From Luscinia megarhynchos (taxonomy: Eukaryota > Chordata > Aves > Passeriformes > Turdidae): 64,000 nucleotides of DNA. The notes beneath the pieces were generated by a model, which saw nothing but the letters and a program-made list of their open reading frames with translations, ran no database searches and was not told the origin of the DNA. Where the stretch lies: NCBI GenBank assembly GCA_034336665.1, contig CM067590.1:1397748-1461747 (forward strand), in the 5' to 3' direction. A program made the translations under genes and the position numbers. Below are positions 40,101 to 46,100 of the stretch, one piece after another (the first letter of the stretch is position 1; each line of letters begins with the position of its first letter).

Positions 40101-43100
40101 CAGAAATCCTGGGATCAAACAGGAGCAGAGCTGCAATTTTGCACACTGAAAAATTCAGGGCACAGAAGGAATCCCACGTTTGGCTCCTCAAGCCCCAGTT
40201 TTCCCAGTCTCTCCTGAGTGTCTCAGAACAATCCCTGCTCTGTTTCAAATCCCAAATTTTCTCTGTCTTCCCTGCTGCAGTGACAGGGACCTACATCCAT
40301 TGACAGGCACAGCTCTCATCACTCTGATCCCTAAAAAACTCAAATTCAGCCTGCTGCTCCTCCCAAACCCCAGACCAGAAACCAGCACACCCCAAATTCC
40401 TTCCCTTGTGTCCCTCTGCTACCAGCACTTGCCATCACCACTTGATCCCACCTCATTTGCTGTTTTCCAGGCCAGAACATTAATTTATTCCATTTGATTT
40501 CAGACTCCAACAAGTGTGAAAAGAAGAATGATTTATGTGAGAAATAGTTTGGAAACTATGCTGACAGAAGGCAGTATAATCTACATTGAAGATGGGTTTT
40601 TTTCTCAAAAAAAGAAAAAAGGAGCAAAACTGGACAGCCTGTATGACTACCTGAGTTGTAGTGCTCTGGGTATTTTGCAGGGAAAAAAAAGATCTCCCGT
40701 GCTTTGAACCTAAATGTGGGATCCAATTCCTTTCCCATGGCTCTGTGCAAAGCTGGAGAAGCAAATCCTGTCCCAGCTTTTGATTTTAGGAATGGAGAAG
40801 TGGAAAAAAATCAACATTTTCTATGTGTTAATGCAGGGAAACACGAAGGGAAGAGGGGAGCTGTAGATGTTACTTCCCCCAAAATGTGCCCCTGGGATTC
40901 TATCCCCTGAACAAAGGAATTCCTTGAAACAGGACCCCTCTCCCTTATCTAAACTCCTGCTATCTCTTAACATTTCTATTGCTTCTTAAAGTTACAAGTT
41001 AATTGGTTCTTTTCTTACTTAGAATTCTCTCTTATCGAAACTCCTGTTATTTTTTAACATTTCTATTGGTTCTTAAAGTTACAAGTTAATTGGTTCTTTT
41101 CTTACTTACAATTTTCTTACTTAGAATTCTCCCTTATCAAAACTCCTGTTATCTCTTAAAATTTCTATTGGTTCTTAAAGTTACAAGTTGATTGTTTCTT
41201 TTCTTACTTACAATTTTAAGGTAATTGGTTAGTTTGTAATTTGTAGTTTTTATTGGTTAGTAGTTCAATCCTCTAGAAACCTCTATAAACCCTTTGTTGT
41301 CTGATGTAATGAGACAGTTGTTAGCAATTCCCTTTGCAGAAATAAAGTTATCTTGGGATAGTTTGTAATTTGTAGTTTTTATTGGTTAGAAGTTCAATCC
41401 TCTAGAAACCTCTACAAACCCTTTGTTGTCTGATGTAATGAGACAGTTGTTAGCAATTCCCTTTGGAGAAATAAAGTTCTCTTGGGAACTTTTGCAACAC
41501 GGTCTCAGCCTTTGTACTTCACCAGTGAGTAGCTGCAGGTTTTGCAGCCTGAGCTCAGATCTGGACTCCAGGGGGCAATCCCAGGGCTGGGAAGGCCCAG
41601 GCTGAGAAGAGCTACAGGGAGGAGTCACCTCCAGGACGTTGGGGATGATGTCCCGCTCGCACTGCTGCAGGAAGCGATCCTTGTCGAAGGAGGGATCCAC
41701 CCGCAGGATCTCGGTCAGCACCTCGGACAGCTCCGTCTTGGAGAAGAGTCCCCCTGCAAGGACAGCTCAGTGGGGACATGGGGACATGGGGACATGGGGA
41801 CATGGGGACAGAGGGACATGGGGACATGGGGACAGAGGGACAGCTCCGTCTTGGAGAAGAGTCCCCCTGCAAGGACAGCTCAGTGGGGACACGGGGACAT
41901 GGGGACATGGGGACATGGGGACATGGGGACATGGGGACATGGGGACAGAGGGACAGCTCCGTCTTGGAGAAGAGTCCCCCTGCAAGGACAGCCCAGTGGG
42001 GGACATGGGGACATGGGGACATGGGGACATGGGGACATGGGGACATGGGGACATGGGGACACGGGGACATGGGGACATGGGGACACAGGGACATGGGGAC
42101 ATGGGGACAGAGGGACATGGGGACATGGGGACAGAGGGACAGCTCTGTCTTGGAGAAGAGTCCCCCTGCAAGGACAGCTCAGTGGGGACATGGGGACATG
42201 GGGACACAGGGACATGGGGACATGGGGACAGAGGGACATGGGGACATGGGGACAGAGGGACAGCTCCGTCTTGGAGAAGAGTCCCCCTGCAAGGACAGCT
42301 CAGTGGGGACATGGGGACATGGGGACACAGGGACATGGGGACATGGGGACAGAGGGACATGGGGACATGGGGACAGAGGGACAGCTCCGTCTTGGAGAAG
42401 AGTCCCCCTGCAAGGACAGCTCAGTGGGGACATGGGGACATGGGGACATGGGGACATGGGGACAGAGGGACATGGGGACATGGGGACAGAGGGACAGCTC
42501 CGTCTTGGAGAAGAGTCCCCCTGCAAGGATGGCTCAGTGGGGACACGGGGACATGGGGACATGGGAGAATGGGGACACGGGGACAGACGGACATGGGGAC
42601 ACGGGGACATGGGGACATGGGGACACGGGGACATGGGGACATGGGGACAGCTCCGTCTTGGAGAAGAGTCCCCCTGCAAGGACAGCCCAGTGGGGACACG
42701 GGGACATGGGGACATGGGGACATGGGGACAGAGGGACATGGGGACATGAGGACACAGGGACATGGGGACATCTCGGTCTTGGAGAAGAGTCCCCCTGCAA
42801 GGACAGCTCAGTGGGGACACAGGGACACGGGGACACGGGGACATGGGGACAGAGGGACATGGGGACATGAGGACACAGGGACAGCTCCGTCTTGGAGAAG
42901 AGTCCCCCTGCAAGGACAGCTCAGTGTGGACACGGGGACAGAGGGACACGGGAACACAGGGACATGGGGACATGGGGACACGGGGACACAGGGACATGGG
43001 GACATGGGGACACGGGGACATGGGGACACGGGGACATGGGGACACGGGGACATGGGGACAGAGGGACACGGGGGAAAGAGGGACAGGGGGACAGAGGGAC

Positions 43101-46100
43101 ATGGGGACACGGGGACACGGGGACATGGGGACACAGGGACATGGGGACAGAGGGACATGGGGACATGGGGACACGGGGACATGGGGACACGGGGACATGG
43201 GGACATCTCGGTCTTGGAGAACAGCCCCCCTGCCAAGACAGCTCAGTGGGGACATGGGGACACAGGGGACACGGGGACAGAGGGACATGGGGACACAGGG
43301 GACACGGGGACAGAGGGACAGAGGGACAGGGGGACAGAGGGACACAAGGAGCAGGGCTCTGGTCTCTGTCCCTGTCCCAGCCCTGTCCCATCCCATCCCA
43401 TCCCAGTACCCCATTATCCCAGTATTCCATTATCCCATCCCATCCCTGTATCCCATTCCATTATCCCTGTATCCCATATCCCAGTACCCCACATCCCAGT
43501 ACCCCAGTACCCCATACCCCAGTACCCCACATCCCAGTATCCCAGTACCCCATATCCCACATCCCAGTACCCCATACCCCATATCCCAGTACCCCAGTAC
43601 CCCATGCCCCAGATCCCAGTACCCCATCCCCCCACATCCCAGTACCCCATACCCCAGATCCCAGTACCCCAGATCCCAGTACCCCATATCCCAGTACCCC
43701 AGATCCCAGTGTCCCCAGTACCCCAGACCCCAGTATCCCATACCCCAGTACCCCATACCCCATATCCCAGTACCCCAGATCCCAGTGTCCCCAGTATCCC
43801 ATACCCCAGTACCCCATACCCCATATCCCAGTACCCCAGATCCCAGTGTCCCCAGTACCCCATACCCCAGTACCCCACGCCCCCAGATCCCAGTGTCCCC
43901 AGTACCCCATGCCCCAGATCCCAATACCCCAGTACCCCAGTACCCCATATCCCAGTACCCCATACCCCATATCCCAGTACCCCATGCCCCAGATCCCAGT
44001 ACCCCAGTACCCCATAACCCACATCCCAGTGTCCCCAGTACCCCACGCCCCAGTGTCCCAGTACCGATGAGGTCGCTGACTCTGTCGGTCACGGCGCGCG
44101 ACGCTCGGATCAGGGCGTTGTCGCTCTCGTCGTATTTCATCTTCATCTCGAAGAACCCTGAGGGGTCAGAGCCCTGCAGCCAGCCCTGCCAGAGCCCAGC
44201 AGGGCCAGCTGCACTCCAGCCCCAGCGTCCCCCATTCTGCTGCTCTGCTCCCCAGCTTCTTCTCATTTTTCCCCATTTTATTCCCCATTTTTCTGGTTTT
44301 GTTCCCCATTTTCTTCCCATTTTTTTCTCATTTTGTTCCCCATTTTCTTCCCATTTTTTCCCCATTTTTCTGGTTTTCTCCCCATTTTTCTCGTCATTTT
44401 ATTCCCCATTTTTCTGGTTTTCTCCCCATTTTCTCCTCATTTTTCTCCCCATTTTATTCCCCATTTTTCTCCCCATTTTATTCCCCATTTTTCTAGTTTT
44501 CTCCCCATTTTTCTCGTCATTTTATTCTCCATTTTTCTGGTTTTCTCCCCATTTTCTTCCCATTTTTCTGGTTTTTTTCCCCACTTTCTTCTCATTTTTT
44601 CCCCACTTTATTCCCCATTTTTCTGGTTTTCTCCCCATTTTTCTCGTCATTTTATTCCCCATTTTTCTGGTTTTCTCCCCATTTTCTCCTCATTTTTCCC
44701 CCATTTTATTCCCCATTTTTCTGGTTTTCTCCCCATCTTTCTCCTCATTTTATTTCCCATTTTATTCCCCATTTTTCTGGTTTTCTCCCCATTTTCTTCT
44801 CATTTTTTCCCATTTTTATTCCCCATTTTTCTGGTTTTCTCCCCATTTTCTTCTCATTTTTCTGGTTTGCTCCCCATTTTTCTCGTCATTTTATTCCCCA
44901 TTTTTCTGGCTTTCACCCAATTTTCTCCTCATTTTTCTCCCCATTTTATTTCCCATTTTTCTGGTTTTCTCCCCATTTTCTTCCCATTTTTTTCCCCATT
45001 TTTCTGGTTTTCTCCCCATTTTTTTCACCATTTTATTCTCCATTTTTCTTCTGATTTTTCTCCCACTTTTATTCCCCATTTTTCTGGTTTTCTCCCCATT
45101 TTCTTCTCATTTTTTCCCCATTTTATTCCCCATGTTTCTGGTTTTCTCCTCATCTTCTTCTAATTTTTTCCCCATTTTTCTCCCCATTTTTCTGTTTTTC
45201 TCCCCATTTTCTTCTCATTTTATTTCCCATTTTGCTCCCCATTTTTCTGGCTTTCTCCCCATTTTCTTCTCATTTTATTTCCCATTTTGCTCCCCATTTT
45301 TCTGGCTTTCTCCCCATCTTTCTCCTCATTTTATTTCCCATTTTGCTCCCCATTTTTCTGGTTTTCTCTTCATTTTCTTCTCATTTTTCTCCCCATTTTA
45401 TTCCCCATTTTACTCACATTTTTCTGGTTTTCTCCTCATTTTTCTCCTCATTTTATTCCCCATTTTTCTCCTTCTTTTTTTCCCCATTTTTCTGGTTTTC
45501 TCCCCATTTTTTCCGCATTTTACTCCTCATTTTTCTCCCCATTTTACTCACATTTTTCTGGTTTTCTCCCGATTTTCCTCCTCATTTTATTCCCCATTTT
45601 TCCCCCATTTTAATCCACATTTTAATCCACATTTTTATGGTTTTCTCCCCATTTTCTCCTCATTTTTTCCCCATTTTATTCCCCATTTTTCTCCCTGTTT
45701 TTCTCCGCATTTTTCTGTTTTTCTCCCCATTTTCTCCTCATTTTATTCCCCATTTTACTCCCCATTTTGGTTTAGATAATACCAAATGCTACTAAAGAGC
45801 CAACAGACATTTTGCTCTAAGCTCAGCAGGAAAGGTCTTAAGGGTTACAAATAAAAAAGCCATAAAACATGGTAATTTGGTAATTTCTATGGGTTGCATG
45901 CAAATATTAGGAAATTAGTATATTGTATTTGATTAGTTATTGAAAATTGTAATATTCATCAGCAAAAAATACTTATTGTGTTGTAAATAAAAAATCTCTC
46001 TCTTGTCTCTGCTCTAATCTCTCTCTAAGCTCTCTTATACCCATGCCCTGTAATAAAATACTAACCTGAAGAACAAAATATATTAAGTTTTTAAGCCTGT

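Follow-up and report, generated by a model that had tools for sequence, protein, structure and literature searches.

Intron 8 of TIMM44, a minus-strand gene in a 64,000-nucleotide (nt) window of the Luscinia megarhynchos genome (positions 1397748-1461747 of a 6.09-Mb contig in the 1.09-Gb assembly; "the window" means this whole stretch), contains a minisatellite in which the intron's own 3' splice site and the first 29 nt of exon 9 recur ten times upstream of the true site. We consider it probable that this minisatellite repeatedly copied the exon edge via microhomology, and that exon definition takes the last site in the row. The gene was identified from 13 exons that join into an open frame of 449 residues, starting with MAAAGACR and ending with STEQVL, and its top-scoring TIM44 relative among the matches listed is that of the myna Acridotheres tristis (95% identity). 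The translation of exon 9 matches PDB 2cw9 (E 1.4e-19), which we take to be a human structure.

Copies of the exon 9 acceptor in intron 8

The whole window was scanned, at up to 6 mismatches, with a 47-mer probe in which 18 nt of intron 8 are followed by 29 nt of exon 9. Eleven matches were found on the minus strand, comprising the true site (41771-41725) and 10 copies upstream of it, here called decoys (Table 1), and the best match on the plus strand had 20 mismatches. Four of the 10 upstream blocks are identical to the true one over 47 nt, five equal it from -20 to +3, and the farthest copy differs at 6 positions. A 24-mer spanning the junction (up to 5 mismatches) has 10 copies inside intron 8 and is absent both from 10 other TIMM44 introns and from five shuffled versions of intron 8; this test covered 11 introns (2 to 12), the ends of intron 2 being placed 1 and 5 nt away from their true positions. 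An exact 26-mer core, GAGCTGTCCTTGCAGGGGGACTCTTC, occurs 7 times in the bird's own assembly (1,092,961,279 bases), as the true site and 6 decoys, and all 7 matches lie within TIMM44 intron 8.

The spacers between the blocks are octamer runs (ATGTCCCC in the sense direction, with variants), and the block-to-block spacings are, in order, 322, 113, 121, 153, 113, 121, 121, 186, 113 and 113 nt. Those of 113 (four), 121 (three) and 153 nt (one), eight of the ten, differ by multiples of 8. The AG is kept in all 10 decoys, and every exon part translates to GGLFSKTE[L/M]S. A sequence-only reading of this DNA had described about ten tandem copies of the 3' splice site and exon 9 start, set between octamer runs and mostly keeping the AG and the GLFSKTEL codons; the 47-mer scan and the unit table of the spacers bear this out in each respect, GLFSKTE[L/M]S being present in 10/10, and its coordinates were correct, with the array proper running from about 41772 to 43345. 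The array is not a tandem exon duplication, since each block holds only 29 of the 125 nt of exon 9 before octamers resume. It is a tandem array holding copies of the true splice sites, with 10 acceptor and 29 donor copies in intron 8.

The donor end of intron 8

The 5' half of intron 8 is likewise a minisatellite, a feature absent from the earlier reading. The true donor is TCG/GTACTGGG (the slash marks the splice junction). The eight intron bases of this site have 29 further copies in intron 8, and the sense strand of the window has none elsewhere. A repeat test covering all 12 TIMM44 introns used exact 8-mers for donors and exact 14-mers for acceptors; among the 12 introns scanned, intron 8 is the sole one in which the first eight bases recur. 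The intron 8 donor array carries the intron side of the junction only, and donor junction copies that include exon bases were found in none of 11 TIMM44 introns or 10 mapped introns of the adjoining gene HNRNPM.

Splice sites were scored with a simple weight matrix whose frequencies did not come from a tool, so the scores are a rough measure. The true donor, at -3.06, scored lowest of the 11 TIMM44 donors evaluated (the exon 1 donor was left out) and ranked 47th among the 238 GT sites in intron 8, with decoys of the form GGG/GTACTG scoring -2.39. The true acceptor scored 2.99, tied with 7 of the 10 decoys, as expected from the earlier picture in which near-identical acceptors stand in a row with the true one at its end; the sequence of the site alone therefore cannot select it. 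By this rough matrix, neither end of intron 8 is selected by its own sequence alone.

Consequences of decoy use

Splicing to the decoys would produce exons of 238, 351, 537 and up to 1601 nt, compared with the normal 125. When joined to the true donor, none of the 10 decoys gives full-length TIM44: seven run into a stop inside the array, one stops in exon 9, and decoys 42165 and 41979 enter a shifted frame that stays open through exon 13 and would end 308 nt beyond the exon 13 coding end if the transcript continued unspliced. Pairing all 30 GTACTGGG donors with the 11 acceptors gives 330 combinations, of which 8 are full length, all using the true acceptor; from 7 of the 29 decoy donors the reading frame is kept, without a stop before the C-terminus. 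No in-frame decoy is readable because a TGA lies 14-16 nt upstream of the true exon 9, in its frame.

The sequence-only reading had expected an octamer array free of stops, which holds for the plain octamers and fails for the array, where ACTGAG places a TGA in one frame in 9 of 11 blocks. Its proposal that a decoy acceptor would give a readable insert was not upheld, since 0/10 decoys in intron 8 reach the TIM44 C-terminus. Recursive splicing at the blocks, which it had also raised, would require ratchet sites of the form AG/GT, and these are ruled out, as are dual-specific sites in which AGGT serves as both 5' and 3' splice site: all 11 blocks read AG/GGG. Most decoys are probably ignored or wasted during splicing, and exon definition would probably select the last acceptor.

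The copies and a possible history of exon 9

TIM44 protein records were collected by combining the best 120 of 1,418 matches with the best 120 of 675, giving 167, of which 14, including those of Lonchura and Rhodinocichla, were set aside when the motif GLFSKTE was not found. GLFSKTE is followed by Met in 150 of the remaining 153 motif-bearing records among the matches listed and by Leu in the other 3, namely those of the rodents Mastomys and Meriones and record P0078. Met stands at this place in 25 of the 27 bird records inspected from the same matches, and the motif is missing from the other 2, so that Leu is found in none of the 25 motif-bearing birds (two further Apteryx records lie outside this list). 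The present exon 9 codon is CTG (Leu), and decoys 42812 and 43247, referred to as M-type, carry ATG (Met), a variant absent from the earlier reading. None of ten short array-like peptide strings was present in the 167 records. The TIM44 models of the songbirds Lonchura (P0008) and Rhodinocichla (P0021) lack the exon 9 start, the junction studied here, which may be due to repeat-related misannotation or an assembly gap.

Over the 10 decoys, the exon parts show five distinct differences (GGA versus GGG, CTC versus CTG, ACG versus ACC, ACG versus ACA, and CTG versus ATG), of which four are synonymous and the fifth is the Leu/Met site. Only 25 of the 87 possible single changes in the 29-nt exon stretch are synonymous, and by our own arithmetic the probability of at least four of five being synonymous by chance is about 0.026, a value that is post hoc and based on small numbers. 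The 18-nt intron part of the blocks also shows five distinct differences. The most divergent copy, 43247, is the one farthest from exon 9. The copies look as if they were snapshots of the coding exon taken at different times, the farthest being the oldest.

Other exons with copied edges

The exon 12 acceptor of TIMM44 is repeated as well, a case absent from the earlier reading: intron 11 has 12 decoys of it when up to 4/16 mismatches are allowed, and 7 when up to 5/24 are. The nearest of them (33367), 90 nt upstream, is identical to the true site over -24 to +14 and departs from exon 12 after GGGGAA, a string also present in most other intron 11 units, as GGGGAACAG or GGGAACAG. Five of the 12 keep an open reading frame, including the nearest, whose use would add 30 residues.

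A comparable arrangement was found 36 kb from TIMM44 exon 9, at exon 2 of the splicing factor gene YJU2 (identified by a PDB match, E 4.1e-17). Within 219 nt, its acceptor recurs six times with the AG and the first bases of the exon (up to 7/24 mismatches), in a repeat with a unit of about 40 nt (L009:3225-3500). Three of the six are in frame and open, and a copy 78 nt upstream, in frame, would add 26 residues.

We surveyed 341.7 kb around the window (including 3,287 N) without annotation, reading candidates by eye, a procedure by which true exons may be missed. This gave 123 candidates, or 183 with looser settings, part of the survey being redone at a slightly stricter cut-off, and three exons with junction copies were recognised: TIMM44 exons 9 and 12 and YJU2 exon 2. 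The candidate at contig position 1357528, which would have been a fourth, was not counted, as it probably represents paralogous EGF-type exons.

Table 1. Features of TIMM44 in the window (window positions).
Feature	Position	Strand	Basis
True block: 18 nt of intron and 29 nt of exon 9; in-frame TGA 14-16 nt before exon start	41725..41771	-	47-mer scan, frame analysis
Decoy block, 113 nt upstream, 0 mismatches over 47 nt; extended exon 238 nt	41838..41884	-	47-mer scan
Decoy block, ACTGGG variant, 1 mismatch; without TGA and without near upstream AG	41951..41997	-	47-mer scan
Decoy block, ACA (synonymous) variant, 1 mismatch	42137..42183	-	47-mer scan
Decoy block, 0 mismatches over 47 nt	42258..42304	-	47-mer scan
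Decoy block, 0 mismatches over 47 nt	42379..42425	-	47-mer scan
Decoy block, 2 mismatches, both in intron part	42492..42538	-	47-mer scan
Decoy block, ACTGGG variant, 1 mismatch	42645..42691	-	47-mer scan
Decoy block, M-type (TEM, ACC GAG ATG), with the Met of other birds; 2 mismatches	42766..42812	-	47-mer scan, protein records
Decoy block, 0 mismatches over 47 nt	42879..42925	-	47-mer scan
Farthest decoy block, M-type: synonymous GGG, CTG, ACC, plus ATG and 2 intron-part changes; 6 mismatches	43201..43247	-	47-mer scan
Octamer minisatellite (ATGTCCCC sense) with 10 decoy blocks embedded	41772..43345	-	Tandem Repeats Finder (TRF), unit table
Donor-side minisatellite: 29 decoy GTACTGGG copies downstream of true 5' splice site	43409..44064	-	Exact matching
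Exon 9, 125 nt; true acceptor AG 41754-41755	41629..41753	-	2cw9 match, open joined coding sequence
Exon 8; donor TCG/GTACTG, lowest-scoring of 11 donors scored (of 12)	44065..44157	-	Weight matrix, joined coding sequence
Exon 12	33167..33277	-	Open joined coding sequence
Minisatellite in intron 11 carrying 12 decoys of the exon 12 acceptor	33278..34656	-	TRF, junction matching

Proposed origin of the array and alternative explanations

In the M-type copies, the exon-derived stretch passes into octamers at ATGTCC, as read from the unit table, and ATGTCC is the single 6-mer common to the M-type exon start and the octamer (the M-type exon string was assembled by hand from copy 42812 and exon 9). 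From these sequences, breakpoints and frames we infer a course of recombination events that would run as follows. The octamer minisatellite of intron 8 would have expanded as far as the 3' splice site and beyond it, with the first 29 nt of exon 9 being copied into the array. An older exon 9 would have held ATGTCC, six bases that match the octamer ATGTCCCC, and unequal pairing or slippage at this match could have duplicated the segment from the last octamer to the exon's ATGTCC, which is the block. Repeated capture over time would leave copies of different exon states, and exchange within the array would multiply them, mostly in octamer steps. The true acceptor would continue to be selected as the one bounding a normal 125-nt exon beside the exon 9 donor, intronic decoys would mostly be skipped, and a message from any decoy that was used would not encode normal TIM44.

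Several observations weigh against this account. The six-base match by itself is weak evidence, and two spacings, 186 and 322 nt, do not equal 113 plus a multiple of 8. Strict layering by distance is broken by copy 42925, which belongs to the newest type although M-type copies flank it on both sides. Other birds were compared at the level of protein records, and Leu is tolerated in three other records, so the change to Leu may be an ordinary substitution. Acceptor copies occur in 2 of 12 TIMM44 introns and in 0 of the 10 mapped HNRNPM introns adjoining them (the start of HNRNPM exon 2 was 1 nt off in that scan). Leakage to the two nearest decoys is also plausible, as exons of 238 and 351 nt might pass exon definition.

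Among the alternatives, we regard neutral growth of the array as possible though rather unlikely: the exon edge would have been captured a single time, followed by amplification and random decay, with the M-type being old and the synonymous pattern due to chance. That there are just five distinct differences in the 29 nt of exon part, and five in the 18 nt of intron part as well, is compatible with this explanation, and 11 of the 12 intron 11 copies deviate from the CTGGCC start of their exon, as neutral decay predicts. It accounts less readily for four of the five exon-part differences being synonymous and for the fifth restoring the residue of 150/153 records among the matches listed. An extension of the repeated-capture account, that the array also writes back into exon 9 by gene conversion, making two-way traffic and a stratified archive, seems to us distinctly unlikely. 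On that view the array would have supplied the switch from Met-Ser (ATG TCC) to Leu-Ser (CTG TCC); CTGTCC is one of the usual octamer forms there, accounting for 24 of about 132 NTGTCC units when the blocks are excluded. The exon edge would thereby evolve in concert with its own decoys.

We find it improbable that the decoys serve regulated unproductive splicing, being used at a set rate to yield early-stop messages and less TIM44. Eight of the 10 would bring in a stop in the array or in exon 9, half of them equal the true site from -20 to +3, and a decoy donor in such a repeat in ABCA7 is usable at a low rate, according to excerpts of PMC5954066; nevertheless, there was no sign here of the array being kept by selection. 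Nested splicing, in which inner donor-acceptor pairs from the 30 donors and 11 acceptors would be removed stepwise and the outermost, true sites last, appears very unlikely. The layout would permit it, since all 29 decoy donors and all 10 decoy acceptors lie between the two true sites, and inner cuts would spare both of these; the inner gap is 180 nt, and introns within introns are mentioned in the excerpted text of PMC10809524. The donors, however, are very weak by the matrix (-2.39). It is scarcely credible that repeat copies were collapsed or invented in assembly, given that copies and spacers carry private differences, that two other exons on the contig show a like pattern, and that the array is just 1.6 kb, a short distance for long reads.

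Relation to known splice-site repeats

The minisatellite of the interferon-induced gene 6-16 (IFI6) was reportedly the subject of Turri et al. in 1995. Like the intron 8 array, the IFI6 repeat holds the gene's own splice site, and two downstream units act as donors according to excerpts of PMC4526556; whereas IFI6 repeats donors only, TIMM44 intron 8 repeats the 3' splice site with 29 coding nt ten times, in addition to the donor side. In the variable number tandem repeat (VNTR) of ABCA7 intron 18, the first GT in the repeat is the true exon 18 donor, and one unit is retained in a described isoform (PMC5954066, in excerpt). This layout is the same as that of the donor half of TIMM44 intron 8, but as described in those excerpts the VNTR has neither acceptor copies nor exon sequence in its unit, and TIMM44 intron 8 has both. 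UBC and VCX3A have dual-specific AG/GT splice sites in tandem repeats, and splicing among the copies is described for them (PMC10809524, in excerpt). They resemble TIMM44 intron 8 in having tandem copies of one splice site, and differ, so far as the excerpted text goes, in that their AG/GT sites lie in a coding array, whereas the TIMM44 blocks are AG/GG in 11/11 and lie in an intronic repeat. A repeat with many copies of an acceptor and exon start was not found among the literature matches listed, a coverage outside which most subscription papers fall. Repeats holding donors are thus already known (IFI6, ABCA7), and the TIMM44 array would add copies of the acceptor and exon edge, and possibly a record of the exon.

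Nearby repeats

Like series of minisatellites occur at window positions 1382-12298 and 17218-27615, about 15.5 kb apart, a pairing that suggests a tandem segmental duplication. At window positions 55547-58690, HNRNPM has an 852-nt exon of GMERMG-type repeats, beside which lies a minisatellite with plus-strand frames open for more than 1000 codons.

Significance

Intron 8 of TIMM44 offers a natural test of how splicing selects one acceptor among sequence-identical copies, with look-alikes at both ends of the intron. The copies may record past states of a coding exon within its own intron, in which case turnover of the array could be compared with change in the exon. Since two more exons within 36 kb, in TIMM44 and YJU2, have their edges repeated in a like manner, repeat-rich songbird chromosomes may do so more often and, if this is frequent, gene annotation and read mapping would be misled.

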